Program-made: the position numbers and the translations under genes
Shown here: piece by piece, positions 4,074 through 20,463 of the stretch
Layout: every line of letters starts with the position of its first letter
Position numbering within the stretch: the stretch's first letter is position 1
Assembly: GCA_026388185.1 (NCBI GenBank)
Contig: JAPLKG010000009.1
Location: 1-20,463, forward strand
Source of the DNA: Candidatus Eisenbacteria bacterium
GTDB taxonomy: Bacteria > Eisenbacteria > RBG-16-71-46 > JAFGJU01
Length of the DNA stretch: 20,463 nt
Direction of reading: 5' to 3'
Notes under the pieces: model-generated
What the model was told of the DNA's origin: nothing
The model's input: the letters and a program-made list of their open reading frames with translations, nothing else
Database searches by the model: none

Positions 4074-5822
4074 CTACCTCATTCCCTGCGGAGCCACGAC
4101 TATGGTGCTCTTGGATTCCTCCCACCCTCCGTCGGCTTCTTTTACGCCGAGGCTCACCACGTAGACACCGGGCGGGACGATTCTCCCTTCCTCGTCAATC
4201 CCGTCCCAAATCGTCTGGACGATCGTTCCGACTCTCCTCTGGTCAAGAAGTCGTCTCACTGTTCTACCGTCCGAGTCGAACACGGTGAGATTCGCTTTCG
4301 TCCCGAGCGAAGGAAGCGCGAACGAGAATACGACTCTGTCGTCGATTCCGTCTCCGTCCGGCGAGATCACGCGACTGCTCATACCGATTTCGAACGAGCC
4401 ACCGCCTCGCGCGGCCTCGCAGACGCTGTTACGTCCGCAGGGCGTCGAGCCCGAAGACGCCACGCTCGAAGACCAGTTGGCCGCCTGCCTGCCACTCACA
4501 GACGTAGAAACGCGTTCGATCGAGCCGTTGCTGCGAGTGGACCAGTCTTCGCAGTAGGCCACGTAGTCGCTTATGCAACCAGAGCTGTCCCTTATGCAGA
4601 CCACGTCGGCGTAGCTGTTTCCTCCAGACGCGCTGTTGTTCAGGGAAGGCCAGCTTCCCTCGGGTTCAATCGCCCGGCCTTCGCATTGATTCGGCGTCTC
4701 CTGAAAGAGTTTCTTGTCCTGAGTGACGACCAGGAATTCGCCGGGCCCGATCACTACCGGAAGCGATGTAAGGCGCGCCTTTTTTTGTGATGAGTCCTCT
4801 ATCCACCAGCCTCTCACGTCCACGGGCATTTGCCCTCTGTTGAAAAGCTCCACCCACTCGGGTTCTCCCGTGGCCGGTGCGTACATGATTTCGTTTACGA
4901 CGACGTCGCCCTCGCCGACGCGCAGACTTGTCGACGCGGTATCGTTGCTTCGATTCTCGTCTTCCCCAAGTCTGAGCACCGCCTCCAGAGTCATGCAGCT
5001 CTCGACTTCGGGGAGCAGGGACACCGACACGGTCTCGGACTGTTTCGGGGCGATTGCTCGCGTCGTGGTTGAGGCAAGAAAACTGCGCGCCGAATCCGCG
5101 ATCCCGAAGAATTCGACCAGGCATTCTCCGTCCGCGAGCTCGCGAGCGCCGAAATTCCCGACCTCGACAGTGATCTCGACATTCTCGAAGAGAAGAGGAA
5201 GGGCCGGCGTCGTGCTCAGAGTCCCGGAGACGAAACCGGCGTCTACGACGCACAAATTGCGTCTTCCGGGAGAAGGCGGAGAGAGGGCGCTGAAGTCGGC
5301 CGAGTTGTCCTGCGTGTCGACGCCGTCGGGCAGTCTTCCTACGCTGATTCCGGAAGCGACGTCCTCGCACGGAGTGCCCTCGTAGTACTCCGGGAACGAG
5401 TGCGAGCCCCATCCCACGAGGTCCACTATTTCCGTCGCTCTTCTTATCCTGCAGGCGTCGGGCCCGTTTTGTAGGTCTAGCTGCTTGACAAATTGAGGAG
5501 CAGGGCTCACGGCGTCTTCGCCTATGACAGCGTAGCCGTGGGCCTCGACGTAGTAGTCCGACTCCCACTGAATGGCGAGGCTCCAGTCTCCCTCCTTGGC
5601 GCCGTTTCCGGTCTCCAGCGCCAGCCCCTTGAGGGAAAGAGGGACCTCCGTGGGATTGTACAGTTCAACAAACTCGAGCCCCTCGTCGGTTCCCTCCGGG
5701 TCGTAGAGGATTTCGTTGATGACGAAGTCCTGGGCGGCCGAGGGAAAGACAGTTGACACTGAGACAATCGAAACAAAGAGGATCGAAGCAAGAGGAATCG
5801 AAGCGAAAAGGCCACCACCCAT
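4074..5822 (-). CDS. Secreted protein with two lamin-tail domains, a CARDB-like domain and a FlgD-like C-terminal domain
   Basis: 582 residues. A signal peptide covers about 1-30 (cleavage near SAA-Q). Two lamin-tail domains follow, each opening with the typical phrase: VINEILYDPEG at 34-44 with EFVELYNPT, and VVNEIMYAPATGEPEWVELFN at 308-328 (broken here into family signatures VNEIMY and WVELFN). Between them, about 196-304, is a CARDB-like beta-sandwich (VEITVEVGNFG). Residues about 476-577 form a FlgD-type Ig domain with ISPDGDGIDD, LTVFDSDGRTVRRLL, TIWDGIDEEG and PGVYVVSL. Such proteins are exported; lamin-tail domains in bacteria often accompany surface proteins and extracellular nucleases, but no catalytic domain is visible here. 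The function is probably structural or adhesive. ATG at 5822 is preceded by GGAGG at six bases. It sits between a VWA membrane protein and a small barrel. Confidence 0.85.
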   Translation of the reverse strand: MGGGLFASIPLASILFVSIVSVSTVFPSAAQDFVINEILYDPEGTDEGLEFVELYNPTEVPLSLKGLALETGNGAKEGDWSLAIQWESDYYVEAHGYAVIGEDAVSPAPQFVKQLDLQNGPDACRIRRATEIVDLVGWGSHSFPEYYEGTPCEDVASGISVGRLPDGVDTQDNSADFSALSPPSPGRRNLCVVDAGFVSGTLSTTPALPLLFENVEITVEVGNFGARELADGECLVEFFGIADSARSFLASTTTRAIAPKQSETVSVSLLPEVESCMTLEAVLRLGEDENRSNDTASTSLRVGEGDVVVNEIMYAPATGEPEWVELFNRGQMPVDVRGWWIEDSSQKKARLTSLPVVIGPGEFLVVTQDKKLFQETPNQCEGRAIEPEGSWPSLNNSASGGNSYADVVCIRDSSGCISDYVAYCEDWSTRSNGSIERVSTSVSGRQAANWSSSVASSGSTPCGRNSVCEAARGGGSFEIGMSSRVISPDGDGIDDRVVFSFALPSLGTKANLTVFDSDGRTVRRLLDQRRVGTIVQTIWDGIDEEGRIVPPGVYVVSLGVKEADGGWEESKSTIVVAPQGMR

Positions 5823-5828
5823 CGTCCA

Positions 5829-5833
5829 CCTCC
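5829..5833 (-). promoter_or_regulatory. Shine-Dalgarno site of the lamin-tail-domain gene
   Basis: GGAGG (followed by T) on the minus strand, six bases before ATG at 5822, within the 34-base gap after the VWA gene's stop. It decides the start. Confidence 0.8.
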
Positions 5834-5856
5834 CATTCTCGGCGACTTACGAAGAC

Positions 5857-8118
5857 TTACGGAAGTCCCGAACGTCGCCTCAACCACCACTCGATGGCCA
5901 CAAACATCGTGAAGGCCAGAAACAAAAGAGGATGATTCCAGAGTCTGACTTGACGTTCGACAGTCGCTTTCTCGCCGAAAGTCTGGATCTCGCGGGCGAG
6001 CGCGCCAACCTGGTCCGTCCCGAAAGACTTTCCTCCCGAAGCCTCGGACACGTAGCTCAGAAGACGTGAATCGGGAAGGAGGTTTCTGTACTCCGGCCCG
6101 TTCGAATCCACAAGGAAGCTGCCGGTAGAGATGGCGCGTCCTCCGTTTTCGACGTCGGAGACCTTGTAGTTGTACGTGCCGGGGGCGAGAACGCCGAGGT
6201 CGGCAGCCAGACTATCTGTGCCCGCTCTTCTTGTGAGGATGCGATCGAAATTTCTATTGTTGGCTCCAGTGACTTCAAGCTTGAGATTCGATTCTTCGCC
6301 GGAGGGAACGGGGGTCTCGGGAGCGCCCGTGGTCCTTCTCGGAGCGCCGCCGCCCGAAAATGTGACCTCTTCTCCATTCTGGAAGACCCACGATTGAGGC
6401 TTGAAGTCGAAAGCTCCGTCTTTCTCACCCTCCGAAAGCCACCATATTGCATTTGCTGTGAACCCACTGAAGAGCCTGTCGGAACCTCCCGCGCCCGGCA
6501 CCGAGAAACCCCATCTCCAAACCCCGCTCGCCGCAACGAGGAGCACCCTTCCCTTGCCGTAGGAGCCGGCGACGATAACGGGAAAACTCTTGTCCCCGGT
6601 CCCGGAATCAAAGAGCACCGAGGCGCCGGGTTTTGCGGAGTCAATCGCGTGCGAACCAAGAAGTGGCGAGATATCTCCCCAGCTCTCCGCGTTGGAAGAC
6701 GATTCCTTCTCGACATCACATATCGGGTGGTTGAGACCGTCGAACGTCACTCGACAGTTCAGATAGTTCTCGGGTCCCCAGGCGTTCGGCTTGAGCAGCC
6801 GGGCCGGCAACAGCCTCCTGGCAGGTTCCGGCACCTCTTTCAACCCCTCGGCGCCGGCGACGAACAGCCCTCCGCCGGAACTCACGAAACTCTCGAGGCT
6901 CTCCCACACGTCAGGGCCCAGGTAGCGCGCGGCGCCATCACCGACAAACACGACGGAGCTTCTGCCAAAACCCTGAGGCACGGATGAAACCAAGCCTTTG
7001 AGGGCCGGTAGCTTCGTCTTTCGTCCCGACACGAGAACGAACGTGGTCTCGAGCTTCGGATCGGACTCGAGCTGCCTCTTCAAGAATGTGAAGTCCCACG
7101 TGATGTCTCCTTCGAGGTAGAGAATCTTGAGCCTTTCGCTGAGCACACTGATTGCAAAGGAGGTCGAATTGTTCGCAGTGGAAGCCTCACCCTTGACCGC
7201 GGGGACGCTCACCTTGTAGAAATGAAGACCCGCCGAAGTCGGCTTGACGGAGAGGAAAATCTCGGTCTCGGCCGAGCCGGCGAGCTTCAGCATCCCTCTC
7301 GATATGACGGTCTCGCCTTCCGAGATACTCAAGGGAACGTTCAGGTTCTCGAGGCCGTAACCTTTCACGCGCACGAGCACGGGCGCTTCGCTGCCGGCGT
7401 AGCCGGACGCTGGATGAAGAACCTCCGTGATTTCGATGTCCCTGAAGGAACCCTCCTTTGCCGACAGAACGGTGTAAACAGGAAGCGAGATTCGCTTCGC
7501 CACGCTGGTCGGATCGGGGCCGAACGTGCTCGCGCCGTCGGAAATTACGACTATTGCCGCGGGAGTCTTCCCGACCCCGGAAGAGATGTCTTCCAGGGCC
7601 TGGCCCAGTGCGGTTCGACTTCCGGCCGCGTCAGTAGGCGGCTCGTTCGCACCCGTGGCCGCCGCAGCCGCAGGAATCGACTTCTTCTCGACTGCCCGCA
7701 GACTGTCTGAGAACACATAGACGGAACTATCAAACCTTCTCGGAAGCTGCTTGAGCAGACTCTGAGCCACGCCGAGCGCCACGTCGGCGCGGGAACGGCT
7801 CGAGTCCTCCGCAACCGCGAGATCGAAAGGCTGTTTCATGCTAGCCGAACCGTCCACCAGGACGAACACCTTGGGCCGGTGGCTCTCCTTGGACTCGATG
7901 CTCACGACGGGCTGAAGCAGGGCCAACAGGACGCACATGAACGCGGCGATACGTAGTCCCATGAGAAGTCGCCGCCTTTCCTTGCCGAGCCGAGTGTCCT
8001 TCCGCACGTACAGGCGAACGACCAGGAGAACGAGAAGTAAAGCGAGGGCGGACAAAAGAAGCCAGGACGAAACCGGTGAGAAGGAAAGGCCCTTTACGAA
8101 AGGAAGCCGACCACTCAT
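5857..8118 (-). CDS. Membrane-anchored VWA-domain protein with glutamine-amidotransferase-like domain
   Basis: 753 residues. Two transmembrane helices (about 18-36 and 54-72) precede a von Willebrand factor A domain at about 83-220. Its metal-ion adhesion site is complete: DGSAS (Asp89, Ser91, Ser93), Thr169 and Asp194 in SDG. Beta-sandwich material (about 225-325, CARDB-like) is followed by a Rossmann-like segment at about 330-560 beginning LKILYLEGDITWDF, which resembles the ThuA/glutamine-amidotransferase-like fold in related proteins; I see no convincing catalytic Cys. A third helix (about 728-746) ends in a basic tail. Proteins of this layout are common in FCB-type bacteria, often near MoxR/Bat clusters, but no MoxR ATPase or Bat partner is visible here. 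It probably acts in the periplasm as a binding or assembly factor. ATG at 8118 has GAGGA nine bases upstream and follows the 315-base gap, so it probably opens a transcription unit. Confidence 0.85.
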   Translation of the reverse strand: MSGRLPFVKGLSFSPVSSWLLLSALALLLVLLVVRLYVRKDTRLGKERRRLLMGLRIAAFMCVLLALLQPVVSIESKESHRPKVFVLVDGSASMKQPFDLAVAEDSSRSRADVALGVAQSLLKQLPRRFDSSVYVFSDSLRAVEKKSIPAAAAATGANEPPTDAAGSRTALGQALEDISSGVGKTPAAIVVISDGASTFGPDPTSVAKRISLPVYTVLSAKEGSFRDIEITEVLHPASGYAGSEAPVLVRVKGYGLENLNVPLSISEGETVISRGMLKLAGSAETEIFLSVKPTSAGLHFYKVSVPAVKGEASTANNSTSFAISVLSERLKILYLEGDITWDFTFLKRQLESDPKLETTFVLVSGRKTKLPALKGLVSSVPQGFGRSSVVFVGDGAARYLGPDVWESLESFVSSGGGLFVAGAEGLKEVPEPARRLLPARLLKPNAWGPENYLNCRVTFDGLNHPICDVEKESSSNAESWGDISPLLGSHAIDSAKPGASVLFDSGTGDKSFPVIVAGSYGKGRVLLVAASGVWRWGFSVPGAGGSDRLFSGFTANAIWWLSEGEKDGAFDFKPQSWVFQNGEEVTFSGGGAPRRTTGAPETPVPSGEESNLKLEVTGANNRNFDRILTRRAGTDSLAADLGVLAPGTYNYKVSDVENGGRAISTGSFLVDSNGPEYRNLLPDSRLLSYVSEASGGKSFGTDQVGALAREIQTFGEKATVERQVRLWNHPLLFLAFTMFVAIEWWLRRRSGLP

Positions 8119-8300
8119 ATCAACCCATCCTCACAATCACTGAATCCCCAAGGATCAGGAAAATCATCGCCACGCCCTTTCCGGAGGCGCGCGAGGATGT
8201 CGCGTCTCTCTTGGCGACACTCAAGGGCGTCACGTCTCAGTTGGAAACGAGCGGAAGCATCAGGTCTCGTTTGGAAGCACGCGATCACGCAAAAAATCAT
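8115..8300 (-). CDS. Doubtful 61-residue leader ORF containing ten-residue repeats
   Basis: An open frame from ATG 8300 to TGA 8115, overlapping the VWA start codon as ATGA. Because the DNA below it repeats every 30 bases, the peptide repeats every ten residues (ACFQTRPDAS, ARFQLRRDAL, ECRQERRDIL). Against it being real: no ribosome site precedes the ATG, the product is very basic and unlike anything I recognise, and the repeat alone would produce the pattern. It could be a coupled leader peptide or a coincidental frame in an upstream regulatory region. Confidence 0.15.
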   Translation of the reverse strand: MIFCVIACFQTRPDASARFQLRRDALECRQERRDILARLRKGRGDDFPDPWGFSDCEDGLI

Positions 8301-8433
8301 GCTGCTCGGTTCTCAAGATAAGAATACAACAAAACCGGCAGAGGAGGGTTGGAAAGTGGATAAAAGGCTTGGGTAGTGTGGTAACAAGAACGCTACCGGA
8401 AGACCCGAAGGCGTGTCAAGAAAATTCTGCCAC
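8119..8433. other. 315-base intergenic region between the STAS and VWA genes
   Basis: The only sizeable non-coding gap in the window. It holds three 30-base direct repeats (8191-8280) and the ribosome site of the VWA gene (GAGGA, 8128-8132). On the minus strand a TTGACA hexamer lies at 8419-8414, but the best -10 partner (TAGCGT, 18 bases on) matches poorly. I find no clear hairpin-plus-T-run terminator after the STAS stop. It is the most likely place for a promoter driving the downstream block. Confidence 0.6.
8191..8280. repeat. Three imperfect 30-base direct repeats
   Basis: Units start at 8191, 8221 and 8251. All three share the core TCnnGTCTCnnTTGG, beginning at 8200, 8230 and 8260, exactly 30 bases apart. 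Pairwise they agree at 17-19 of 30 positions by my hand alignment. A weak fourth match may lie at 8161-8190. The spacing is close to three helical turns, as expected of an operator array bound on one face of DNA, but a decayed minisatellite would look the same. Confidence 0.6.
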
Positions 8434-9312
8434 CTATTTCCTGCTTCCCGCCACGGCAAGCGAATCAGCGTAGCGTATGCGCTTTTCTCTCGTATCGAGG
8501 TTGAGGCGCTTGAGTTCCATGAACAGCGTGAGAGGATTGATCGGCCTCCTGTAGTCGTGCGCAAGTAGTTCTCTTGCAATCTTGATGCTACCGTAGTCGG
8601 GATGCTCCCGCACAATCTCACGGATCATTGCTTCGAGGTTCTTGCTCGAGGTGACGTCGGCCGCGTGAGATTCGGTCTCGAAAGTGCTGGGCGTGCCAAT
8701 TAGCGACGATGCCGAAGCAGTGCCAGCCGTTGTATTGCCGGCGGCTGCACCACCAGCCGTGACCGGAGCGCTACCAGTCGTTGTACCACCGGCGTTGGGC
8801 GAGGTATCACCGGCCGCGGCAGTGCCAACCGTGCCAGTACCGACCTGGGAAGCGGTCGCCGCTCCCGTACCCTGGCCCGTAGTCCCGTGCGCCACGGGCT
8901 CGGTGCCTTTGTCTGATTCGTCGGACCTCGGCTTCTCCTGTACCGGTGCGGCCTTCGGTCTCTCGAATTTTTCCACGGCAGCTTCCACGGTCTTGAAGGA
9001 TTCAAGTATGTTATGGAACTCGAGGAGCTCGAACACCTCTGCTACTTCCGGTGTCATTCCGATGAGCTTGAGATCGCCTCCGCTCTCTCTTATTCCACGA
9101 ATCTCGCTGATAAAGATTCCCCAGCCCGCACTGCTGATGTAGGTCACCTTGCCCAGATCGATGATTATCTCGAACTGGCGGTCCTTGAGCAGGTACTGCA
9201 GTCTTCGCTCAAGTTCGTGTGACGTCGTGGTGTCAATCTGGCCCAGCACGCGGACGACCGCTACCTGATAGTGGGAACCAGCCTGCTCAACTATTACATC
9301 GATGCCCTTCAT
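8434..9312 (-). CDS. STAS-domain anti-sigma-factor antagonist with C-terminal integrase-like HTH domain
   Basis: 292 residues in three parts. Residues 1-115 are a STAS domain of the SpoIIAA/RsbV type: RVLGQIDTTTSHELE near 21-35 and DLGKVTYISSAGWG at 52-65. Ser61 aligns with the serine phosphorylated in SpoIIAA. In this family a switch kinase phosphorylates the antagonist to inactivate it and a PP2C phosphatase reactivates it; both activities are encoded by the gene just upstream. Residues about 122-222 form a Gly/Thr/Ala-rich linker. Residues about 224-284 (HPDYGSIKIARELL, then LKRLNLDTREKRIR) match the second HTH of the neighbouring phosphatase and resemble transposase N-terminal HTH domains. 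ATG at 9312 overlaps the previous stop as ATGA and has GGAGG seven bases upstream. No sigma factor or separate anti-sigma factor is in the window, so the output partner is unknown. Confidence 0.85.
   Translation of the reverse strand: MKGIDVIVEQAGSHYQVAVVRVLGQIDTTTSHELERRLQYLLKDRQFEIIIDLGKVTYISSAGWGIFISEIRGIRESGGDLKLIGMTPEVAEVFELLEFHNILESFKTVEAAVEKFERPKAAPVQEKPRSDESDKGTEPVAHGTTGQGTGAATASQVGTGTVGTAAAGDTSPNAGGTTTGSAPVTAGGAAAGNTTAGTASASSLIGTPSTFETESHAADVTSSKNLEAMIREIVREHPDYGSIKIARELLAHDYRRPINPLTLFMELKRLNLDTREKRIRYADSLAVAGSRK
8461..8643 (-). other. Integrase-type HTH domain at the C-terminus of the STAS protein
   Basis: Residues about 224-284. Shared pattern with the phosphatase tail: P-x-YG-x3-I-x-REL, then about 20 residues later L-K-x-L-x-L-x-T-x3-R. 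The similarity is clear by eye although the loop between the two halves differs in length. DNA binding is inferred from the family, not shown. Confidence 0.6.
8647..8940 (-). repeat. Low-complexity Gly/Thr/Ala linker coding region
   Basis: About 98 codons dominated by Gly, Thr, Ala, Ser and Val. The DNA shows degenerate repetition; for example, similar 20-base stretches begin near 8724 and 8775 (CAGYCGTTGTAYYRCCGGC on the plus strand). It is probably a flexible tether between the STAS and HTH domains and a likely site of length variation. Confidence 0.6.
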
Positions 9313-11810
9313 TTGCTCTCCTCCTCCCCCACTGCGGTGGGCTGAGTGCTAGAGTGGACCTCTTCTGGTTCGAGGCCGACCGCAGTCGGGTACCCGGTGT
9401 TGTCCTCCATGTCGAGATTCATGATTTTTCTTGTGCCTTCTAAGGCAGACTTCTTTCTCTGATCTTTGGTGCCCAGGTCGAGTTTCTTGAGACATAGATA
9501 GATTTTCCCGGGCGAAACGTCGAGACTGCCAAACTCGGCCTTGCTCAGCTCGCGGCTGATCCGCTTCGGCCCGTAGGAAGGGAACGTCTTCGCAACCATG
9601 AGAATCTTCTGCTCGACTTCAAGGCTCACGCGTCCGAGTTTCTCAAGAGATCTCGGAATCTTGTCCCTGAGACCTTCCTCTCCCAGTTCGTGCATCCTCT
9701 TCTTGTACTTGTAATAGCTTGAAGGAGACACCTTCATTATCTCGCACGCTTCGTTCACGGACATACCTTCAACTTCAACCAAGTCAATGAGCTTCTTTCT
9801 GACGTCATATAGTATATCGTCAACAACCGCCCTTTCCTTTATGGCTACGAGCGTTATGTCGTCATTTTGTGCTTCCCCGCCCGTGAAGCCCGCCACCTCT
9901 TCGTCCAGCGTTCTGGCAAACTCTTGCGGCGGCAATTGGCCGTATTTCTTGATGACTCTCAAGAACCTCTCTTCGCCGAAGAGCTCGCCGTCCTTGTTCA
10001 TGGCCTCGGTTATGCCGTCCGTGTAAATGATGAGCATGTCCGCCTGCTTGAGCTTGATGCTCTCGGAGCCGATCGATTTCTCGAAGAGAGAACGATCCCC
10101 GAGGTCTATCCCCACGGGGAAACCCTTCGGATTGAGGAAATACGTCTCGCCGGAATCGCCCCTGTAGAGAATCATCGGGTTGTGACCCGCGCTGGCGAAG
10201 CTGATCACTCTGTGTCTCGAATCCAGAACCATGTAGAAAATCGTGACAAACATGCCCTTCTTCATGTCGTCCGTGACAAAGCTGTTCATTCTCGCAACGA
10301 CGTCCTTCGCCGACCTGTTGCCCCTCGCCTCCATTCTCAAGGCCGTTCTTATCATGGTCATGACCAGCGAGCCTGCGACCCCCTTGCCGGAGACGTCCGC
10401 CACGACAACGCCGAGAGTGTCGTCGTCCACCCACACGAAATCGTAATAGTCGCCTCCAACCTCTTTCGCGGCTCTGTAGAGAGTGCCGATTTCGAATCCC
10501 TCCGCCGTCGGTACCTCTCGCGGTAGAAGAGACTGTTGGATTTCCTGGGCCACCTGCATTTCTTTCTGCAGTCGTTCCTGTTCGACGAGGTTCTGCTGTG
10601 CCTTCTTGAAACGCGCGGTGATCTCGTTGAACGTGCGGGCTATCTCGTCTATTTCGTCGGGACCTCCTTCGTCCAGTTTTCTGTCGAGCATCCCCTCTCC
10701 GATTGCGCGAACGCCGTCGGACAGTTTTTGGAGCGGCTTGACAAAGCGGGACACGACGAACCAAACGGCGACGTTCCCCAGCGCAAGGACGAGCAGCGCC
10801 GTTCCCAGAAGCGCTCCTCTGGCCCGGGCCATGTACTGGTTAAGCGCGTCTCTTCTGATGTCAAGGTAAACCCTGCCTAGCTCGGCGGCCGCAGAGCCGG
10901 GAGCCTGGACGGCGATAGGTGTGGACAACGATATGAGCTTCGCCCGATACCCCTTGTCCTGCGCCTGAGATTCAGAAAGAATGGCCTCATACGAGGCAAA
11001 GACCTGCGCCGGTTTGTCGCTCGCCCAGATGTTTCCCTCCCTGTCAACGACCATTATGCCGGCGATCTGTGGATTCTCTTTCAGGGTACGGACGATCGTC
11101 TCGTTGAGGAGCGTCTGTTCTACGGAGAGCGGTTCTTTGGAGAGAAGAAGCTCGGTGCTCTGGCGGGCAATCCCCGCAGAGATGGCCTTGCTCCGTGCGA
11201 TTACTTCTATCGTGATGGTTCTGTCCTGGCGCACGACAAAGTAGAAGAAGGCACTCGCTACTATCGCGAACAAGATCGCGGATGCGTACAAGCTGAACTT
11301 GAACCTGAGACTCTTGTGCCATATAGGCCTCTTCCAGGCCAGAGGCGGGCGTTTGCGCTTTCCGAGAAGGTCCTTCCTCATTGTCAGCACGTTGCCTGAC
11401 GGCGTCACATTGTAGTTGACGTCGTCCATGAGCCTGTTCATGAGAAAGAGACCCAACCCACCTTTTCTTCCCGTGGCCACGTAGCGTCTCAGGTCAGGCA
11501 CTCGCACCTTTTGAAGGTCGAAGCTCTCTCCATTGTCCGTGAGGGAGATGGTGAGGCGGTTCGATCCGGACGCGACGACGGTGACCTTTATCGACCCCTT
11601 CTTCGATCTGTAGGAATGCTTGATGATGTTGGTGCTGGCTTCGTCAATCGCAAGCTTCATGGCGTTCGTGGCTGTGGATGCGACGTTGAGCTCGGCGCAC
11701 ACCTTGTCCACGAACTCCCGCACCTGGACCAGGTATCTCTCTTCACCCGGGATTTCCAGGTTGAACCGCTTTTCGCTTCTGTCACCCAGGATTTTTCTCA
11801 CCACGGTCAT
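9309..11810 (-). CDS. Membrane switch protein: RsbW-like kinase domain, sensor, HAMP, SpoIIE phosphatase and transposase-type HTH tail
   Basis: 833 residues from ATG 11810. (1) Residues 12-147: HATPase of the RsbW/SpoIIAB type, with N-box AIDEASTNIIKHSY (Glu57, Asn61), DNGESFD (92-98) and a GLGLFLMNRLMDDV glycine loop. (2) TM about 172-193, extracytoplasmic sensor about 194-332, TM about 333-355. (3) HAMP about 356-405 and a Gln/Glu-rich coiled coil to about 430. (4) SpoIIE/RsbU PP2C phosphatase about 440-660 with the metal-binding motifs intact: VGGDYYDF (Asp454), ADVSGKG (Asp472), YTDGITEA (Asp598), QNDDITL (Asp651). (5) Two HTH domains about 664-790. In this family the kinase and phosphatase set the phosphorylation of a STAS antagonist, here the next gene (ATGA overlap). 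The start lies one base after the previous stop. An upstream in-frame start at 11939 would overlap that gene by 128 bases and adds only a basic stretch. Confidence 0.9.
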   Translation of the reverse strand: MTVVRKILGDRSEKRFNLEIPGEERYLVQVREFVDKVCAELNVASTATNAMKLAIDEASTNIIKHSYRSKKGSIKVTVVASGSNRLTISLTDNGESFDLQKVRVPDLRRYVATGRKGGLGLFLMNRLMDDVNYNVTPSGNVLTMRKDLLGKRKRPPLAWKRPIWHKSLRFKFSLYASAILFAIVASAFFYFVVRQDRTITIEVIARSKAISAGIARQSTELLLSKEPLSVEQTLLNETIVRTLKENPQIAGIMVVDREGNIWASDKPAQVFASYEAILSESQAQDKGYRAKLISLSTPIAVQAPGSAAAELGRVYLDIRRDALNQYMARARGALLGTALLVLALGNVAVWFVVSRFVKPLQKLSDGVRAIGEGMLDRKLDEGGPDEIDEIARTFNEITARFKKAQQNLVEQERLQKEMQVAQEIQQSLLPREVPTAEGFEIGTLYRAAKEVGGDYYDFVWVDDDTLGVVVADVSGKGVAGSLVMTMIRTALRMEARGNRSAKDVVARMNSFVTDDMKKGMFVTIFYMVLDSRHRVISFASAGHNPMILYRGDSGETYFLNPKGFPVGIDLGDRSLFEKSIGSESIKLKQADMLIIYTDGITEAMNKDGELFGEERFLRVIKKYGQLPPQEFARTLDEEVAGFTGGEAQNDDITLVAIKERAVVDDILYDVRKKLIDLVEVEGMSVNEACEIMKVSPSSYYKYKKRMHELGEEGLRDKIPRSLEKLGRVSLEVEQKILMVAKTFPSYGPKRISRELSKAEFGSLDVSPGKIYLCLKKLDLGTKDQRKKSALEGTRKIMNLDMEDNTGYPTAVGLEPEEVHSSTQPTAVGEEESK
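9320..9327 (-). promoter_or_regulatory. Ribosome-binding site of the STAS gene inside the phosphatase gene
   Basis: GGAGGAGG on the minus strand, ending seven bases before ATG at 9312. It lies within the last codons of the phosphatase gene, so the STAS protein can initiate on its own as well as by coupling at the ATGA overlap. Confidence 0.75.
9441..9821 (-). other. Two transposase/integrase-type HTH domains at the end of the phosphatase
   Basis: Residues about 664-790. The first HTH reads GMSVNEACEIMKVSPSSYYK with the follow-on HELGEEGLRDK, the usual pattern of IS481-type transposase N-termini. The second reads VSLEVEQKILMVAK, FPSYGPKRISREL and VSPGKIYLCLKKLDLG, as in the P-x-(Y/W)G-x-(K/R)-(R/K)-I linker HTH of IS3/IS481 proteins. 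No DDE (rve) core follows; the protein ends about 40 residues later in an acidic tail. Confidence 0.75.
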
Positions 11811-11811
11811 G

Positions 11812-13809
11812 CTACTGCGCTTTCCTTTCGCCCGAAGAGAGTCTGGCCTTCGCCTTCTCAATGTTCCTGGCAACCATTTCGTTCTGAGGATCCACTGCCA
11901 TAATCTTCTTCCAGGACTCAATCGCCTTCTCGTATTCACCCAAGTTAAAGTGGTTCATCCCTTCTACGTAGAGCTTCTTCACGTTCTCTTCTACCTTGGG
12001 CGTTTTCGGAGAAAGCCTCTCTTCTATCTTTTCGGCAAGTCTGAGGCCTTCTTGATCGGCCGGGTAGAGTTTCAGCATCTCTTGGAGTTGCGCTTTGGCT
12101 TCTGTGTAATTTTCTCTGTCGTAAGCAGTTACAGCGTTCGTATAAAGTGTTAGAGCATCTATTCTGCGCATGGCCTCCACGAGGTCGCGTCCGACGGTCT
12201 CGACCGCGCTCTTCGAAGTCTCCATTCCTCTTCTGGCCTCTTCGTTCTCGGGACTCAGGATGAGCACCTTGTTCCACGCCGAGTATGCCTCGAGATATTT
12301 CCCCGAGGCGGCGAGATTCTTCGCAAGGGCGACGTTAGAGGCCACGTCTACGGCAATGAGTGAATCCGCCTGCCTGATGCCGCTCAAGGCCTCGGCGTTT
12401 CCGGGCTCGAGCTCGTTTGCCTGCCTAAACCGCAGCAGACCCGCATTGAAGTCGCCCTGGCTCACGTACTCCTTGGCCACCTCAAGTAACACATGAAGCT
12501 TCGCGTGCTCGCCGGCCATCCTGGCCTCTTCCTCGGTCTTCCTTGCCAGAGCCTCTCTTATCTTCTTGACGCTCTCCTTTGCCTGCGCGTTTTCCGGATC
12601 GTATTCGAGCACGAGGTTCCACTCGTCGAGGGCGCTGGAATAGCTCGCCTGATCGAATGCGCGCCTTGCGAGCTCGGCATGAGCTTCAATCCTCTTGGCC
12701 TTTTCTTCTTCGAGCATTCTCGCCAGCTCCCGCTTGCGCTCGCGCTCCTCGCGTTCTTTTCGCAGGGCAATTGGATCTCCGAAGGTGGCCGAGACCGAGA
12801 ACTGGTGCAGATTCCCCAGTTCGCTGTTTCCGATCGAATAGTCGAGTGAGTAGCTTCTCCATTTCACACCAACTCCGGCGCAGAGTTTCCCCTCTTTGAA
12901 TCCCGCCCTGAGAGCCACGAGTTGATCCACGACGTACTCGCCTCCCACTGAAACGTTGGTGTTTGCCTTCTCCGGCAGAGAGACGTCAATCCCGACGAGA
13001 AGCACGTCACGCCCCCCGCGCAGTGAGTCTCTGTAGGACCCGCCGGCACGCAGGGTGCGCGGAGTATTTTCGACTCTGTCAGCAAGCTTGAGTTTGGCGC
13101 CCGGCACGTCCCGGGCGGCCAGACCGAGCGCAAGTCCCTTGACGTACGGCACCGAGTAAAGGGCCCCGACGTCAAATCCCGCACCGTTTGTGCTCAGCTC
13201 TCCCATCCCCTGATTCACGATCTTCAGGGAAGCTCCGACGTTCACGTTGAACGGAATCTTCCGGCCGTAAGAAAATATCATTTCGCTCTGAGAGAAACCT
13301 ATCTGCCCCAGGCTTCTGCTTCTGTCGTCGTAGGCCTGTATTCCATCGGTTCCGACTCTCAAGAACGCGAAACCGATGCCACCGAAGCGGACGGTGGGGT
13401 GCGCTATCGAGAAGAAATCGAGTGAACTCCCCTCGAACAGCAAAGAATGAAATCCTGTGATGCCGGTCTGTCCGAGGCAGGAGAGCCCGGCAGGGTTCCA
13501 GTACGTTGCCGTCGCGTCGTCCGAAATCGCCGTGAAGGCGCCACCCATCCCGAGCGCTCTCGAGCCGGCGCCGAGTGAGAAAATGCTCTCGGTGCCTCCG
13601 GACACACTGCTTGCCGCAACGCTCGTGCCCGACGAAAGCGCAAGGAGAAGCAAGGTCGCCGCCAGGAGCCCTGCCGCGGCCATGACAGTGACTCTTGCAG
13701 AGGACGAGGCACGTACCCCAGCCGCCATGGCGGTCGCCACGGCGCCACAGGGCCCGATCTCAGGGCGACTGCGAATAGTCACGCGACCTTTTTGTGCAAT
13801 GCCTCTCAT
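11812..13809 (-). CDS. PorV/PorQ-like outer-membrane barrel fused to C-terminal TPR repeats
   Basis: 665 residues. After a long basic N-terminus, a hydrophobic signal segment lies at about 43-66. Residues about 75-343 match the PorV/PorQ (UPF0164) barrel family: FSLGAGSRALGMGGAFTA, then DDATATYWNPAGLS, the hallmark opening, with final strand HQFSVSATFG. A charged coiled coil (about 348-380) leads to about five TPR-like repeats (roughly 375-410, 438-472, 490-525, 553-590, 607-645) with phrases such as YDPENAQAKE, LEPGNAEAL, LSPENEEAR and VDPQNEMVAR. In type IX secretion, PorV carries substrates with C-terminal signals to the attachment complex; a comparable job for the giant protein encoded just upstream is inference. 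ATG at 13809 overlaps that gene's stop (ATGA) and lacks a strong ribosome site, suggesting coupling. An internal start at Met28 or Met43 would give a more normal signal peptide. Confidence 0.85.
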   Translation of the reverse strand: MRGIAQKGRVTIRSRPEIGPCGAVATAMAAGVRASSSARVTVMAAAGLLAATLLLLALSSGTSVAASSVSGGTESIFSLGAGSRALGMGGAFTAISDDATATYWNPAGLSCLGQTGITGFHSLLFEGSSLDFFSIAHPTVRFGGIGFAFLRVGTDGIQAYDDRSRSLGQIGFSQSEMIFSYGRKIPFNVNVGASLKIVNQGMGELSTNGAGFDVGALYSVPYVKGLALGLAARDVPGAKLKLADRVENTPRTLRAGGSYRDSLRGGRDVLLVGIDVSLPEKANTNVSVGGEYVVDQLVALRAGFKEGKLCAGVGVKWRSYSLDYSIGNSELGNLHQFSVSATFGDPIALRKEREERERKRELARMLEEEKAKRIEAHAELARRAFDQASYSSALDEWNLVLEYDPENAQAKESVKKIREALARKTEEEARMAGEHAKLHVLLEVAKEYVSQGDFNAGLLRFRQANELEPGNAEALSGIRQADSLIAVDVASNVALAKNLAASGKYLEAYSAWNKVLILSPENEEARRGMETSKSAVETVGRDLVEAMRRIDALTLYTNAVTAYDRENYTEAKAQLQEMLKLYPADQEGLRLAEKIEERLSPKTPKVEENVKKLYVEGMNHFNLGEYEKAIESWKKIMAVDPQNEMVARNIEKAKARLSSGERKAQ

Positions 13810-16800
13810 TTTGCCACCGCAATCTTGAACGTGGCGTTGACACCCGCTGCTTCGAGTTTGCAGATGTAAACGCCGTTCAGCACGACGTCGCCGCTACCGT
13901 TCTTGCCGTCCCAGAGAATCTCTCTCAACCCTTCCCTGCCCTCCGATTCCTGCTCGGAGAAAGTCTTCGCAAAGACGGGCTTCCCGTCGAGCGTGTATAT
14001 CCTGATCGTTACCTTGGAATCGCGCTCGAGATTGTAGGAAATCCTCGTGGATTCCATGCCCGCCCTGAACGGGTTCGGGTAGTTGTGGACACCCGTGAAC
14101 CATCTCGAAGGTGCAGAAAAAGTCCGCGGGAAGGTCTCGTTGTCCGAGGACACCACTCCTATTGCCTGTCCCGAGGCAACGTCGACAACTTCAAACGCCG
14201 CGTCTCCTTCGAGTTCAAGCACGAGACCGGTGCCGCCCGGGTACTGCGACACGTCAACCATGACCAGAAGCGTGTCGCTCTCGCCGGGACCAAGCGTGTC
14301 GGCTTCGGGCGCAAGCTCGACTCTCACGGGATTCGTTGACGAGACGCTCGCAATGCCCAGCAGGATGCCGGGTGAAGAGTATCGCGAGAGTTTCACGGCC
14401 GAGAGAACCGAAGATGGATTCGCGAGTCTTGCGTAATCCTCTCCGTCCACAAAGAAACTCAGAGCCTTGAGCACAATGTCGCTCCCCTCGCCGATCTCCT
14501 GGGGGTTAGTGATTCTTAGGGCCATCAACCATACGGAGCTCTCTCCAGGCGCCATCTGCGCCGGAGCTTCGACAAGAGGAGGCACGTCGGCAATCATGCT
14601 CTTGGCCTCCACGTACGCGGCGATGTCTTTAGTGCCGGTGGAAACGTAGGCTTCAGCGCCGGTGTTTTCGTCGAGAGGAATCACGGAAATGTATGTAGAG
14701 ATGCTCTGGATCGGAGAGGTCTCCGAAGGAGCAATCGCGTCCCAACGCACCGGGACCCCAACCGAAAAGTCCTGCTCTTGAGTGTAGCCCTCTGCCAGGG
14801 CGTAGCCCGCGGGGAGAGAGATCGCAATCTTCCCGCTCGCCGCTGGGGCCGCCGTCCCGAGGTTTGACACGGTGGCCACAATGGTGAACCGACTGCTCAC
14901 GTGCAGACTGCCGTCCGTGGCATCTGCGGGAGCAGTGATGGCGGATTGAAGCGAGAGGTTGGTCTTCACGACTACCGACGCGTCGAAAACTCTGCTCGCG
15001 TTCAGCGTGTCTGCCGCCTGGCCTGTGTTGATGGCGAGCGGTACGTTCGCCATCGTCACCAGGAATCCTTCCGAGTCGGATGGGTCCGCAGGAGCGACCA
15101 GCGACCATTCGACTGCGACACCGGGCTCGAAGCTCTGAACGAGCGGGGAGAGCAGGTTGAAGCCCTGTGGAACGGCGATGCCAAGCGTACCGCCTGAAGC
15201 CACTGATCCCTCTCCGGTGTTGGCCACGATCGCACGTATCTTGAAATTCTGCTGCGTCGACAGTATGTTATCGGTCGCTCCGGACGGTTCTGAGATCGAA
15301 GTCGAGAGCGAAAGGAGCGCGGGCAGTTCGATAATGGCGCTCGTCGTATCGTCGAGAGCGACGCCGACAAACAGGGGTTTCCCACTTATTGCTCCGACCG
15401 AAGACTCGATCTGCGCGGTAAAGGTCTCGGCTCCCCCAGAAGTACCTGCCTCCACTGGGATGCTGAGTGTTTTCCTGCTCTCACCCTGAACTACACCGGC
15501 AGTCACGGGGCCCCCGATGACGGAGCCGCCGTTCGAGGAGAGAGAAACAACGACGTCCAGTGCGTCTTCTTGGCCCACGTTTTCTACTTCGACGTCCACC
15601 ACGAACGCTTGCGACGTATTGACGCGCGGCGCGTTCGGTGAGTCGAGCGCGGTCGAGTAGATCCGCAAGTCTCCGGGCCTGTTCACGAGAACGCTGTCGG
15701 GAGAAGTCGAAAGCGTCTGGGAGAAAAGGAATCCATTCCCGTCCGTCCCCTCGAACTCGAGGGAAACGGCGTGGGGGCCGGCCGCTATTGCCGTGCTGTC
15801 AAGCGTTATGCTTCTGAAGTGCAGCGACGCCGTCGAATGGCCCGGCACATCACATCCTTGAGAACAATCCACGGTGTCGATGATGGTACCCAAAGACAGG
15901 AAGCTCGAGTCCGCCACGAAAAGCGTCGCATCGCCCGTGTTCTCCACTCTGAGCGAGAAACTTACGGTCTGCTCCTGCGCCACTACGTCCGGTGTCAGGG
16001 AATCGTAGACGTATCTCAGCGAAGATTCGCTCTGTACGACAAGTTCGCCCTGCGGCGAGAGAATCCTTGCCTCAAGCGGGAAACCATTCTCGACCCCTTC
16101 CAGATTGAGCTCCACACCGTACGACTGGGCCGCCATTGCAGGCGACAGCGTGTCTTGCACAAACTGAAGAACGGCGCTTTCGCGAGGAGCTATCAGAACG
16201 GGCGCGCCCAGACCGGCGGCGACGAATTCGTGTGCTCCGTCCCTGATGTCTATCTCGCAAAGAGTTGGCTCCACCAGGGCGGCCGCGTCTCCCAGGTTCT
16301 CGATTTCTAAAGAGAAGCCGACCACCTGGCCTGCCGTGACTCTCGACGGCGCCAGGCTGGAGGCGACCCAGCTAAGCAGTGCCCTCTTCTGGACGACGAT
16401 GCTACTGCCTGGAGTAATGAGACTGTCCTCGGCGATGCCGTTCTCCTCAATCTTCACGAGAAGTTCCGGATTGTAGGGACCGGTCGCAAAACTCGTGTCG
16501 ATCTCGGAGGCAGGGAAGGTGAGGGTCCGCAAGCTCTCGCTCTCCACGAGGAGAGACTCCGAAAAGAACGCCTCGAACTTCGGCGTTGTGCCGAAGCGCA
16601 AGCTCGTGCCGGGGAGAATCCGTGCAGCGGCCTCGCCTCTGTTAGCCAGAACAACGTTGAAAGACGGCGAATGGCCCGTGCTCACGGTTTCGGGAGAAAT
16701 GGAGACGTATTCAAGCACGGTAGGAAGCTCCACCCTCACAGTCTGCGGATCGCAGGAAAGCGTGTCCGCAAAGGCTGCCTGGTTCTCAGTTCCGGCCAGA

Positions 16801-19800
16801 ACAACCTCCACAGAATGTGCTCCTATCTCCATCGATGCGGGGACCTGAGCCTCGGCAAAGTGGACCACAGTCTCGCCGGCGCCGCTCAAGAGCGTGGGTG
16901 TCGAGAGACGCGCCACGTACTCCGACCCTGGCGCTCCGAATCTCATGTAGGTCAGGGACGTGTCCAGCTCCACCGAAACCGTTCCGGAATTGGCTATCGC
17001 CATCGAGAATGAGTGCGCCTGCCCCAGGGAAACACTCGCCCTCGTCAAGCTTTCGTCCACGTAAGAAAGAGCTGCACGACTCTGAACAAGCCACGTGGCA
17101 GTGCTGTCAGCATGAGTGCCGTTGACGTCAACTCCGCCGGACACGCCGCTTGCGAAACCGTCAATGGTACAGGGGCCGAGAGGGGCATACTCGTCCACGT
17201 CAACGAGGAACGAGAAGACTCGCGTCTCGCCGCCCGCCAGAATGTGAGGCAAAACGGGCGAGGAAAGCGAGTAACTGTGCCCCACGCTCGAGAACGTCAG
17301 GCCTATCGCCGTCACTTGAAGCGGAATGCTTCCCTCGTTCTCGACGGTCATTTCCAGCTCTGTGTCCAGGTCTCCACGGGTCACGCTGGATCTTGCAGAG
17401 ATCGTGCGAACGCGCATCGCGACCACGTTGACGGTGTTGGCCCCCGCCTGGAGACCCTGTAAGAAGGAATTTCCACGGCCGTCTCTCCCCGAAAGGCTCA
17501 AGATCGGCGAGTAGGAACCTGGATCGAGTTGATCGGGCACACTGACCGAGTCAAACGCGAGGCGCGCCCGCGTCCCCGCAAGAACCACGACCGTGTCGGA
17601 GAGGGTTGCGACGTAGCTGCCGTCGTTTCCGTCGTTGAACCCGAACGTAGAGGAAGGAGACAGGTAGACCCTGCCCCCACCCGTGTTTTCAAGCTCAAGC
17701 TCAAACGAGACCTTTTGGCCGTCGTTTACAACACCGGGAGAAACGGAACCGGCCACGTAGCGAAGGTAGGGCGAGTCGAGAAGAACGATGGTTTTGAGCC
17801 CGCTGGCGGTCCCTTCAATAGAGGCTGCACGTACGGTGTCGCTGCCGGCCACGGTGCCCGCCCTCAAGGCAAACGACACTTTGCCGTCCGCCGACGTCGA
17901 GAGTTGAATCCCGGAGACGCTCGTGTCCGCGTCAGGCGCCACAATCTGACAGAGACTGGCTGCCACCGTGACCTTGACCCCGGAGCCCACGTTGTTTCCG
18001 TAACCATCCGCGAGGGGCCCCGCACTTACAATTGTGGACACTTCCCCATTCGCGGTCAGAGTGTCCTCTAGAGAAGCGACGGTGATCGTGCCGGCGGGAA
18101 GAGCCGGCGTGACAGTGATGTTGCTCTTCGATGCGCTTATGAGAATCCCTTGAACGTCTTCTGCAAGAAGGCCGAGGTTTCCGGCCGTGGTGTCTGTAAG
18201 TTTCAGCCTTGACTGCGAAGAGCCCGAGACGAGTCGCAAGGAGTCCTCGGCAGTTGCGGACCACGCCGAACCGCCGTCCGTGGATATTCTTGCACTCGGC
18301 GAGGAGGCCCTGATCCTGACGAGGCTTGTGTCCGATGTGTCGAGGTTCCCGAAACTATCCTTGGCGTCTACCGAGAGCGAAAGCACGGCTCCGGCGGTGT
18401 CCATCACCGCCTGCGCGGGGAGTATTTCGAGAGACGTCGCTCCCGCCGGAGTTGAAGTGACGAAAATGTCGGACACCGACTGGTGATTCACGGTGGAACA
18501 GTATGCGTCGATCGTGTCACCGAGAGCCGACGCCTGTGGAGCACGATAGAGGACCGTGACGAGACCCGAATTGTCGGTAGCGCCCGTCTGAATGGAAACG
18601 CCGCCCGAAGTGTTGTTCGAGTTCGCCGGGTCGTCATCCAGAGAGCCGTCGGCTGCGTCCTTTATGACGACGCTCACGAGTTCGCCGGGACAAGAGCCTC
18701 CAAAAGCGTCTCTCACCGTGGCGCTGATGACTTGGGTCCCTGCGGCGTTCACATAAAATGCCCCGGGGGGATACAACTCGATGCTGGCCGCGGCTCCGGC
18801 CGTTACCTCTATTCCCTCGACGAAACCGTCTATCTGAGCGTCGGAGGTATCGCCGGCTGATATCGTGTGAGTACCGACCGTAGTAAGACGTACCCCGGCA
18901 GAGAAAACGTGAAGCCCGGCGTCAGTGGGCGCAAAACCGTAATCGACAGGAAGCACCGTCGCACTGCCAGTGTCGGACGAAGCAAAACCTACTACGCCTG
19001 TGTATCCGGTGGCCCTGTTCCCGTACTCATCCTTCGCCTCCACTTCGAGGTCGAGCCAGTCTCCGGCAGCCACAGACATTGAAGAGGCTCTGACAATCAG
19101 GGAATCGCAGGACTCCGGAACCACCGTTATGCCGCTCTGGGTACCAGTCACCGAAGGCTCTGACACATCGAAAGCGCTCACGGACTGCTCTCCAGAGAGC
19201 GTAAGCTTCACAGACAGCGGAAAGACGTGTCGCCCGCTGTCAGGCAGAACAAAGGTGTAGTCAGGCGGAAGAACGGTCTCGGGGTTGCCGTCGCTGCTCG
19301 AAAACGCGATTGTCCCATCGTAGTCGGGCACCCTGTTCCCAAACCTGTCTCTCACCTCAACGACAACGTCGCTCGAAGTTCCGGCAACGACAGGATCCGA
19401 GACGCTGGACACAATAAGGGTATCTTCTACGGAATAATGAATCGACACTTGTGCCGTGGCGGCCGGAAGCGCCGGCGCGTTAGTGTCGACGTCCATCACC
19501 GTGAGCTGTGACTCGACGGGCCTGGTGTCAACGTAATCGAAGGAAATCTGCGAACTATCTGCCGCCATCACCTTCTCGAATATCTCAACGCTCCCGCCCG
19601 TTTCCCTGAACTCTCCCGAGGCGGAATTCGTCCAAAGGTAGAGAGTCTGCGGAAGAGACGCTGGCGAAACGTTGCCAAAGGAATCCTTTATCGTAAGCGT
19701 GAAGGTACCTTGCGTGCCGGCCTCGAGGAACAAGCTGTCCGGGACAACGACAAGGACGGAAGGACTTCCGGGACCGACCTGGATGCCGGATACAATACCG

Positions 19801-20463
19801 TCTATCTGAGCGTCGGAGGTGTCGCCGGCTGATATCGTGTGAGTACCGACCGTAGTGAGACGTACCCCGGCAGAGAAAACGTGAAGCCCGGCGTCAGTGG
19901 GTGCAAAACCGTAATCGACAGGAAGCACCGTCGCACTGCCAGTGTCGGACGAAGCAAAACCTACTACCCCTGTGTATCCGGTGGCCCTGTTCCCGTACTC
20001 ATCCTTCGCCTCCACTTCGAGGTCGAGCCAGTCTCCGGCAGCTACGGCCATTGAAGAGGCTGTGACGATCAAGGAGTCGCAATCCTGCGGAACCACAGTT
20101 ATGCCGCTCTGCGTACCAGTCACGGAAGGCTCTGACACATCGAAAGCGCTCACGGACTGCTCTCCAGAGAGCGTAAGCTTCACAGACAGCGGAAAAACGT
20201 GCCGCCCGCTGTCGGGCAGAACAAACGTGTAATCGGGCGGAAGAACGGTCTCGGGGTTGCCGTCGCTGCTCGAAAACTCGATTGTCCCATCGTAGTCAGG
20301 CACCCTGTTCCCAAACCTGTCTCTCACCTCAACGACAACGTCGCTCGAAGTTCCGGCAACGACAGGATCCGATACGCTGGACACAATAAGAGTATCCTCT
20401 ACGGAATAACGAATCGAAGCGTACGTCGTGACTGTGGGGAATGCCGGGGCATTTGTGTCAACG
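13806..20463 (-). CDS. Giant secreted surface protein with Ig-like and CARDB-like repeats and FlgD/T9SS-like C-terminal domain, 5' end outside window
   Basis: The frame is open through base 20463, so at least 2,218 residues are visible and the N-terminus is missing; GTG at 20384 is internal. From the visible N-terminal side: Ig-like domains of the invasin/filamin type (about 20463-17775), each with a VEVRDRFGNRV or VEAKDEYGNRA phrase, then about nine CARDB-like domains (about 17770-14650) opening with LRYV or LSYV phrases and containing VENTG or IANSG. Next is a less typical domain (about 14620-14110) and a C-terminal domain (about 14105-13809) with NYPNPFR, KVTIRIYTLDGKPV, LREILWDGKNGSG and NGVYICKL. 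That ending matches FlgD-type Ig domains and type A T9SS sorting domains. It is probably an extracellular filament or adhesin. No catalytic domain is seen. The stop overlaps the PorV-like gene by ATGA. Confidence 0.9.
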   Translation of the reverse strand, partial: VDTNAPAFPTVTTYASIRYSVEDTLIVSSVSDPVVAGTSSDVVVEVRDRFGNRVPDYDGTIEFSSSDGNPETVLPPDYTFVLPDSGRHVFPLSVKLTLSGEQSVSAFDVSEPSVTGTQSGITVVPQDCDSLIVTASSMAVAAGDWLDLEVEAKDEYGNRATGYTGVVGFASSDTGSATVLPVDYGFAPTDAGLHVFSAGVRLTTVGTHTISAGDTSDAQIDGIVSGIQVGPGSPSVLVVVPDSLFLEAGTQGTFTLTIKDSFGNVSPASLPQTLYLWTNSASGEFRETGGSVEIFEKVMAADSSQISFDYVDTRPVESQLTVMDVDTNAPALPAATAQVSIHYSVEDTLIVSSVSDPVVAGTSSDVVVEVRDRFGNRVPDYDGTIAFSSSDGNPETVLPPDYTFVLPDSGRHVFPLSVKLTLSGEQSVSAFDVSEPSVTGTQSGITVVPESCDSLIVRASSMSVAAGDWLDLEVEAKDEYGNRATGYTGVVGFASSDTGSATVLPVDYGFAPTDAGLHVFSAGVRLTTVGTHTISAGDTSDAQIDGFVEGIEVTAGAAASIELYPPGAFYVNAAGTQVISATVRDAFGGSCPGELVSVVIKDAADGSLDDDPANSNNTSGGVSIQTGATDNSGLVTVLYRAPQASALGDTIDAYCSTVNHQSVSDIFVTSTPAGATSLEILPAQAVMDTAGAVLSLSVDAKDSFGNLDTSDTSLVRIRASSPSARISTDGGSAWSATAEDSLRLVSGSSQSRLKLTDTTAGNLGLLAEDVQGILISASKSNITVTPALPAGTITVASLEDTLTANGEVSTIVSAGPLADGYGNNVGSGVKVTVAASLCQIVAPDADTSVSGIQLSTSADGKVSFALRAGTVAGSDTVRAASIEGTASGLKTIVLLDSPYLRYVAGSVSPGVVNDGQKVSFELELENTGGGRVYLSPSSTFGFNDGNDGSYVATLSDTVVVLAGTRARLAFDSVSVPDQLDPGSYSPILSLSGRDGRGNSFLQGLQAGANTVNVVAMRVRTISARSSVTRGDLDTELEMTVENEGSIPLQVTAIGLTFSSVGHSYSLSSPVLPHILAGGETRVFSFLVDVDEYAPLGPCTIDGFASGVSGGVDVNGTHADSTATWLVQSRAALSYVDESLTRASVSLGQAHSFSMAIANSGTVSVELDTSLTYMRFGAPGSEYVARLSTPTLLSGAGETVVHFAEAQVPASMEIGAHSVEVVLAGTENQAAFADTLSCDPQTVRVELPTVLEYVSISPETVSTGHSPSFNVVLANRGEAAARILPGTSLRFGTTPKFEAFFSESLLVESESLRTLTFPASEIDTSFATGPYNPELLVKIEENGIAEDSLITPGSSIVVQKRALLSWVASSLAPSRVTAGQVVGFSLEIENLGDAAALVEPTLCEIDIRDGAHEFVAAGLGAPVLIAPRESAVLQFVQDTLSPAMAAQSYGVELNLEGVENGFPLEARILSPQGELVVQSESSLRYVYDSLTPDVVAQEQTVSFSLRVENTGDATLFVADSSFLSLGTIIDTVDCSQGCDVPGHSTASLHFRSITLDSTAIAAGPHAVSLEFEGTDGNGFLFSQTLSTSPDSVLVNRPGDLRIYSTALDSPNAPRVNTSQAFVVDVEVENVGQEDALDVVVSLSSNGGSVIGGPVTAGVVQGESRKTLSIPVEAGTSGGAETFTAQIESSVGAISGKPLFVGVALDDTTSAIIELPALLSLSTSISEPSGATDNILSTQQNFKIRAIVANTGEGSVASGGTLGIAVPQGFNLLSPLVQSFEPGVAVEWSLVAPADPSDSEGFLVTMANVPLAINTGQAADTLNASRVFDASVVVKTNLSLQSAITAPADATDGSLHVSSRFTIVATVSNLGTAAPAASGKIAISLPAGYALAEGYTQEQDFSVGVPVRWDAIAPSETSPIQSISTYISVIPLDENTGAEAYVSTGTKDIAAYVEAKSMIADVPPLVEAPAQMAPGESSVWLMALRITNPQEIGEGSDIVLKALSFFVDGEDYARLANPSSVLSAVKLSRYSSPGILLGIASVSSTNPVRVELAPEADTLGPGESDTLLVMVDVSQYPGGTGLVLELEGDAAFEVVDVASGQAIGVVSSDNETFPRTFSAPSRWFTGVHNYPNPFRAGMESTRISYNLERDSKVTIRIYTLDGKPVFAKTFSEQESEGREGLREILWDGKNGSGDVVLNGVYICKLEAAGVNATFKIAVAK
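13809..14105 (-). other. FlgD-like / type IX-sorting-like C-terminal domain of the giant protein
   Basis: The last 99 codons. The pattern YPNPF, then TRISYNL, IRIYTLDG, WDGKN and NGVY is the one databases call FlgD_ig or T9SS type A sorting domain. Without the secretion genes in view the route of export is not proven. Confidence 0.75.
14650..17774 (-). repeat. About nine CARDB-like protein repeats within the giant gene
   Basis: Repeats of about 105-130 residues recognised by openings such as LRYVAGSVSPGVV, LSYVDESLTRASV, LSWVASSLAPSRV and LRYVYDSLTPDVV, and by VSFSLRVENTGDA-type strands. They are diverged at the DNA level, unlike the tandem copies upstream. Confidence 0.7.
18820..19491 (-). 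repeat. Direct repeat copy within giant gene (972-base period), downstream copy
   Basis: Pairs with 19792-20463 at a constant offset of 972 bases (324 codons). Several 60-base lines differ at only one to three positions, with a more divergent patch around 19081-19115 and toward 19440-19491. It encodes two Ig-like domains. The third Ig-like domain of the 324-codon period (about 19500-19790) is replaced by a diverged relative after this copy. Confidence 0.9.
19792..20463 (-). repeat. Direct repeat copy within giant gene (972-base period), upstream copy
   Basis: Partner of 18820-19491. The match continues to the window edge, so further copies may lie outside. The 26 codons before the internal GTG at 20384 (ending YSVEDTLI) repeat the sequence at the equivalent place one period downstream. 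Confidence 0.9.

Follow-up and report, generated by a model that had tools for sequence, protein, structure and literature searches.

A transposase-type helix-turn-helix module common to a membrane-bound SpoIIE-type phosphatase and its STAS partner

Domain organisation of the tailed phosphatase

The locus described here raises the question of why a membrane-bound SpoIIE-type phosphatase, P0001, should end in helix-turn-helix (HTH) domains of the kind found in transposases. Its gene lies at 9309–11939 of the window (the stretch of DNA analysed, which is an entire contig of 20,463 bp), and this and all other gene and domain features given below are on the minus strand. The ORF is listed with a GTG start at 11939 and 876 aa, but ATG 11810 is the likelier true start because it adjoins the stop of the upstream gene; this yields 833 aa, the numbering used in the initial annotation of this DNA. 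From the N-terminus, P0001 consists of a HATPase_c_2 domain of the anti-sigma kinase type (residues 64–189, 11373–11750; Pfam E = 2.6e-25, RsbW E = 7e-21), two membrane segments flanking a cache-like sensor, a HAMP domain (residues 395–441, 10617–10757; Pfam E = 3e-11), a SpoIIE domain of the PPM phosphatase type (residues 505–701, 9837–10427; Pfam E = 3e-51), and two HTH domains, HTH1 and HTH2. The SpoIIE domain has the conserved motifs GGDYYD, SGKG, AGHNP, YTDG and DD, with the metal-binding motifs kept, and the best PDB match of its model is 3ke6 (Rv1364c). Three other SpoIIE proteins are encoded in the window's genome, all of them GAF-linked and tailless.

HTH1 (HTH_28-like; residues 706–757, 9669–9824) and HTH2 (HTH_32/HTH_21-like; residues 773–834, 9438–9623) were delimited using profile matches and AlphaFold2. 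Pfam HTH_28 matches residues 714–763 with an E-value of 4e-8, exceeding the curated cut-off, and Pfam also detects HTH_32-like sequence at residues 742–814. The NCBIfam IS481 transposase profile matches residues 714–831 (E = 4.6e-19) and is covered from position 2 to 116 of 284; as the match stops there, no DDE core follows the HTHs in P0001. All nine tails tested (9/9) matched IS481, IS3 and IS630; in this comparison the P0001 tail matched the start of IS481 with E = 1.4e-18, and for IS3 the E-value was 7.9e-9. An AlphaFold2 model of residues 480–840 (mean pLDDT 88.3, pTM 0.85) contained two helical domains with an HTH pattern, with predicted helices at residues 706–722, 728–735 and 739–757 in HTH1, and at 773–785, 791–798, 810–819 and 825–834 in HTH2. 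When the tail was compared by sequence with solved structures the best match was weak (3o60, the Lin0861 protein, E = 2e-4), and the best 50 Foldseek matches of the phosphatase-tail model were phosphatase folds only, with no independent match to the tail fold.

Pfam, NCBIfam and AlphaFold2 therefore agree with the initial annotation, which had placed two transposase-type HTHs and no DDE core after an intact SpoIIE domain, at coordinates (9441–9821) nearly equal to those of HTH1 plus HTH2; both the profile and the structure check it proposed for the tail return an HTH fold. Its suggestion that the tail resembles a captured transposase fragment is likewise borne out by the match to the N-terminal part of IS481 and the absent DDE core. 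It had also recognised P0001 as a membrane SpoIIE sensor but did not mention the RsbW-type HATPase domain at the N-terminus, by virtue of which P0001 joins the kinase and phosphatase of a partner switch.

The adjacent STAS protein carries a copy of HTH2

Overlapping the phosphatase gene by 4 bp is the gene for P0002 (8434–9312), a 292 aa anti-anti-sigma homologue. Its STAS domain (8962–9300; Pfam E = 2.5e-17, with ant_ant_sig above cut-off) has SpoIIAA in complex with SpoIIAB as its closest fold in Foldseek, and contains, within the motif YISSAGWG, a predicted phospho-acceptor, Ser61, that is invariant in 10/10 aligned STAS proteins. A low-complexity linker, predicted to be disordered (residues 121–209, 8686–8952; pLDDT mostly <50), leads to a C-terminal domain of four helices (residues 213–290, 8443–8676), which structure modelling and profile comparison identify as a copy of HTH2. 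Using hhalign, this C-terminus aligned with the phosphatase HTH2 over 57 columns (98% probability, E = 5e-14), and in the models the same four helices occur in the same order in both. HTH_21 was found in the STAS tails of 9/10 relatives at E-values up to 0.1, the best being 6.5e-6. Furthermore, over 20 whole genomes a STAS-tail profile matched phosphatase tails and ORFs of about 225–400 aa; all of the STAS-size ORFs that were read encode STAS proteins, and there were no transposases among the matches listed at E ≤ 0.01. The best 50 Foldseek matches of the P0002 model were mostly STAS folds, and the tail fold again had no independent match. The phosphatase tail thus stands as first described, but not as an isolated feature, and because the neighbouring STAS partner carries a second HTH copy the tails look like a shared pathway module. 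This is a clear evolutionary case in which the second half of a transposase-type region is common to an enzyme and its substrate.

We compared divergence of these domains across 21 related pairs. In values not corrected for the tree, divergence of the phosphatase HTH2 tracks that of the partner's STAS domain (partial r = 0.63), but not that of the SpoIIE domain in the same protein (partial r = -0.14), while HTH1 co-diverges with SpoIIE (0.61). The two HTH2 copies showed no co-divergence with each other once phylogeny was allowed for (partial r about -0.05, 21 related pairs). At sampled loci, phosphatase HTH2 scores ranged from 49 to 82 bits with a tailed or fused STAS and from 19 to 48 bits where the adjacent STAS is without a tail, a comparison that is biased, since tailed lineages contributed to the profile.

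Distribution and origin of the module

Further SpoIIE proteins with this tail, for which the initial annotation had suggested a search, were found in several phyla. In the phylum of the window's genome the tailed phosphatase is present in 11/47 genomes, and an adjacent STAS gene with HTH2 accompanies it in 11/11, although in two of these the STAS gene shows apparent frameshifts or deletions. In the Krumholzibacteriia-containing phylum, 31/80 genomes match at E = 1e-10, a count that takes in one partial match in a 365 aa ORF. Most of the complete proteins read from this phylum are 1380–1493 aa long and unite the phosphatase, both HTHs and then three STAS domains in one polypeptide, with no second HTH2; two bare STAS genes usually lie downstream, and one locus (L108) has the non-fused form. 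The fused proteins (e.g., L005, L008, L012) end in a short conserved IRSMGWKEYGRKL-like motif after the third STAS. In many loci, genes for a ParA-type ATPase and a TPR protein are found directly 3' of the fused HATPase-SpoIIE-HTH-3xSTAS gene (e.g., L099:10295-12332).

The module is present in 81/82 genomes of the G180 phylum, typically with three matches per genome, one in a large ORF and two in ORFs of about 220–270 aa; in those sampled, the matches were a single phosphatase together with STAS-HTH2 proteins, of which one is encoded next to it and the other is unlinked. Among relatives of G056, 26/59 genomes match; an adjacent STAS-HTH2 is found in several, and in others the STAS is tailless or HTH1 has been lost. 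STAS-HTH2 is encoded at a separate locus in a group related to a Bacteroidetes-labelled MAG. In ten loci (L014, L235–L239 and L241–L244) an HTH2-like remnant alone follows SpoIIE, with HTH1 undetectable. As a negative control, the phylum of a Holophagaceae MAG yielded the tail in 0/199 genomes at E = 1e-15. Being near-universal in at least one phylum, the module probably acts as a core regulator in bacteria that are for the most part uncultured.

All 68 tailed SpoIIE domains fell into one clade of a FastTree phylogeny built from this domain (support 0.68, with few outgroups). The phylum of the window's genome, the Krumholzibacteriia-containing phylum, the G180 phylum and the G052 group were each monophyletic at 0.957 or more, and the G056 relatives were not. 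These data fit best with one old capture and vertical inheritance thereafter; most likely, a bacterial signalling pathway here took over a DNA-binding region of transposase type. The window's genome does hold an IS481-type transposase gene elsewhere (C19; L155:4171-5412), and a recent transposon insertion or an assembly chimera might have fused the 5' end of an IS481 element to the phosphatase gene. However, the junction, domains and neighbours are the same in many genomes of several phyla and the tailed SpoIIE domains are monophyletic, and an assembly chimera is excluded because the architecture recurs in other genomes, the single-contig G002 among them. Conservation and synteny thus rule out such an event, to which we assign a negligible probability, and the tailed phosphatase is an ancient, retained module rather than a fresh transposon insertion. 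Sequence and structure prediction together establish the domains, their conservation, the module and its common descent.

Gene neighbourhood and possible outputs

Upstream of the phosphatase gene is a gene (11812–13809) whose product has a UPF0164/OMP-like N-terminal region and TPR repeats, an operon order that is conserved elsewhere, and next to it a conserved neighbour encoding a giant Ig-like/CARDB protein with a FlgD-type C-terminus (13806–20384). Downstream, a VWA-like membrane protein (5857–8118) is likewise a conserved neighbour. The order giant Ig-like, OMP/TPR, tailed phosphatase, STAS, VWA and lamin-tail is common to the class of the window's genome and the Krumholzibacteriia-containing phylum, and given the presence of these giant Ig-like/FlgD-type, OMP/TPR, VWA and lamin-tail proteins, the conserved cluster around the switch genes (4074–20384 of the window) suggests a cell-surface or secretion role. 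The giant gene itself contains near-identical stretches at 18970–19260 and 19942–20232 (seen as plus-frame ORFs), about 970 bp apart, which point to a recent internal duplication.

The window's genome encodes eight sigma-70 region 2 proteins, among which one looks FliA/WhiG-like by eye. No sigma gene was recognised within the conserved cluster, and a promoter scan around the switch genes found no promoter. In 6/6 sampled genomes of one phylum (L182, L219, L221, L222, L224 and L225; Pfam-tested in one and assigned by sequence clustering in the rest), a second, unlinked STAS-HTH2 gene is located directly upstream of polysaccharide-export (PF02563) and chain-length/tyrosine-kinase-type genes. This arrangement recalls SiaABC and SypA, related switches that control biofilm (PMC7647112, PMC8256260).

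A model for the switch and its alternatives

Judged by their sequences, the SpoIIE, HATPase and STAS parts bear the features of a partner switch. We tentatively favour a membrane-anchored partner switch in which the shared bipartite transposase-type HTH module assembles the phosphatase with its STAS substrate, and put the assembly role of the tails, to which this estimate refers, at a little under an even chance. HAMP would relay a periplasmic signal to the SpoIIE domain, and this domain would dephosphorylate the STAS serine (predicted Ser61); an RsbW-type kinase domain, be it the one at the N-terminus of P0001 or a different one, would rephosphorylate it. The phosphatase HTH2 would recruit the STAS protein, whose HTH2 copy is attached by a flexible linker, and where the STAS is covalently fused the second HTH2 is absent. 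HTH1 would probably bind DNA and place the switch near its target genes. What we infer in this scheme is the biochemistry of the switch, its docking, its binding to DNA and its target; the scheme offers a possible answer to how SpoIIE-type phosphatases stay specific for one STAS partner.

The two recognition helices differ in character. That of HTH1 (SPSSYYKYKKR in P0001) keeps the S-x-S-T-Y-Y-[KR]-Y-[KR] pattern, as in transposases, and has a net charge of +3 or +4 in 31/32 proteins, whereas that of HTH2 is near neutral in phosphatases (mean +0.75). As the basic helix is kept in HTH1 and that of HTH2 is near neutral, it is HTH1 that possibly binds DNA, and for a near-neutral, shared HTH2 partner docking is no less fitting a role than DNA binding. 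Docking through HTH2 is favoured because this domain co-diverges with the partner STAS and not with its own SpoIIE, and scores lower beside tailless STAS proteins. The adjoining of STAS-HTH2 and phosphatase in the class of the window's genome and two other groups is consistent with assembly; counting against it are the absent co-divergence between the HTH2 copies and the lineages in which the phosphatase is tailed but the STAS is not, or from which HTH1 has gone.

Membrane-tethered gene control by the tailed phosphatase is possible, and binding to DNA is the usual role of transposase-type HTHs. Both tails may be sequence-specific DNA binders, with STAS-HTH2 as a phosphorylation-dependent promoter regulator and the phosphatase binding the same site. 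The retained HTH1 helix pattern, the second STAS-HTH2 gene just upstream of the polysaccharide-export and chain-length-type pair, and the ParA-type ATPase gene beside the fused form all speak for this reading. Yet the domain that the STAS carries is HTH2, with its near-neutral helix in phosphatases, the basic linker present in several compared transposases is not retained, DNA-binding proteins fixed in the membrane are unusual, though known, and no DNA site was identified; we regard it as a serious contender that falls well short of probable. We think it rather unlikely that the switch has a direct output with no sigma factor, in which a phospho-regulated STAS-HTH would act on promoters (e.g., of exopolysaccharide-export operons) while the phosphatase is bound via its matching HTH at the membrane. 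An ordinary partner switch with a sigma factor as its output, with the HTHs serving as inert spacers or for dimerisation, would account for the presence of all the classical parts and could draw on the sigma-70 region 2 proteins of this genome, including the FliA/WhiG-like one. However, the module is kept in nearly every genome of the G180 phylum and in several other phyla, the conserved tail columns take in recognition-helix residues, and the cluster has no recognised sigma gene, which makes such a switch improbable.

Comparison with known systems

In agreement with the initial annotation, which regarded the layout as undescribed, we found no SpoIIE-type phosphatase or STAS protein with a transposase-type HTH in the open-access papers that we searched; shared tails of this type on a phosphatase and a STAS protein appear to be an undescribed wiring of a stress-type switch. 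IS481 and IS3 transposases have an N-terminal bipartite HTH like the P0001 tail, but P0001 has no DDE catalytic core and no basic linker of the kind seen in several compared transposases, and sits in a conserved operon context.

Partner-switch domains are fused in new orders in SsdA/SipA of Actinoplanes missouriensis, where SsdA joins a STAS to a sigma-factor domain (PMC10733313); there the added domain is a sigma factor and not a transposase-type HTH, and the phosphatase is absent from the fusion. In SiaABC(D) of Pseudomonas aeruginosa a PP2C phosphatase controls an anti-sigma-antagonist-like protein, with a non-sigma output that affects biofilm (PMC7647112), but unlike P0001/P0002 this system has a separate kinase protein, no HTH tails and a diguanylate cyclase as its output. 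In SypA/SypE of Vibrio fischeri a STAS protein controls polysaccharide/biofilm genes via an unknown target (PMC8256260), although SypA is STAS-only and SypE is a dual kinase/phosphatase. RsbU/RsbV/RsbW and SpoIIE/SpoIIAA/SpoIIAB have the three enzymatic/partner domains, their motifs and the predicted phospho-serine in common with P0001/P0002, but their sigma target is known, and neither their phosphatase nor their STAS protein bears a domain of DNA-binding type. Finally, Rv1364c of Mycobacterium tuberculosis combines a SpoIIE/RsbU-type phosphatase, an RsbW-type kinase and a STAS in one polypeptide (PMC12143880), with a PAS input, the order PAS-phosphatase-kinase-STAS and no HTH, whereas P0001 has its kinase domain at the N-terminus, a membrane-bound sensor and two HTHs after the phosphatase.
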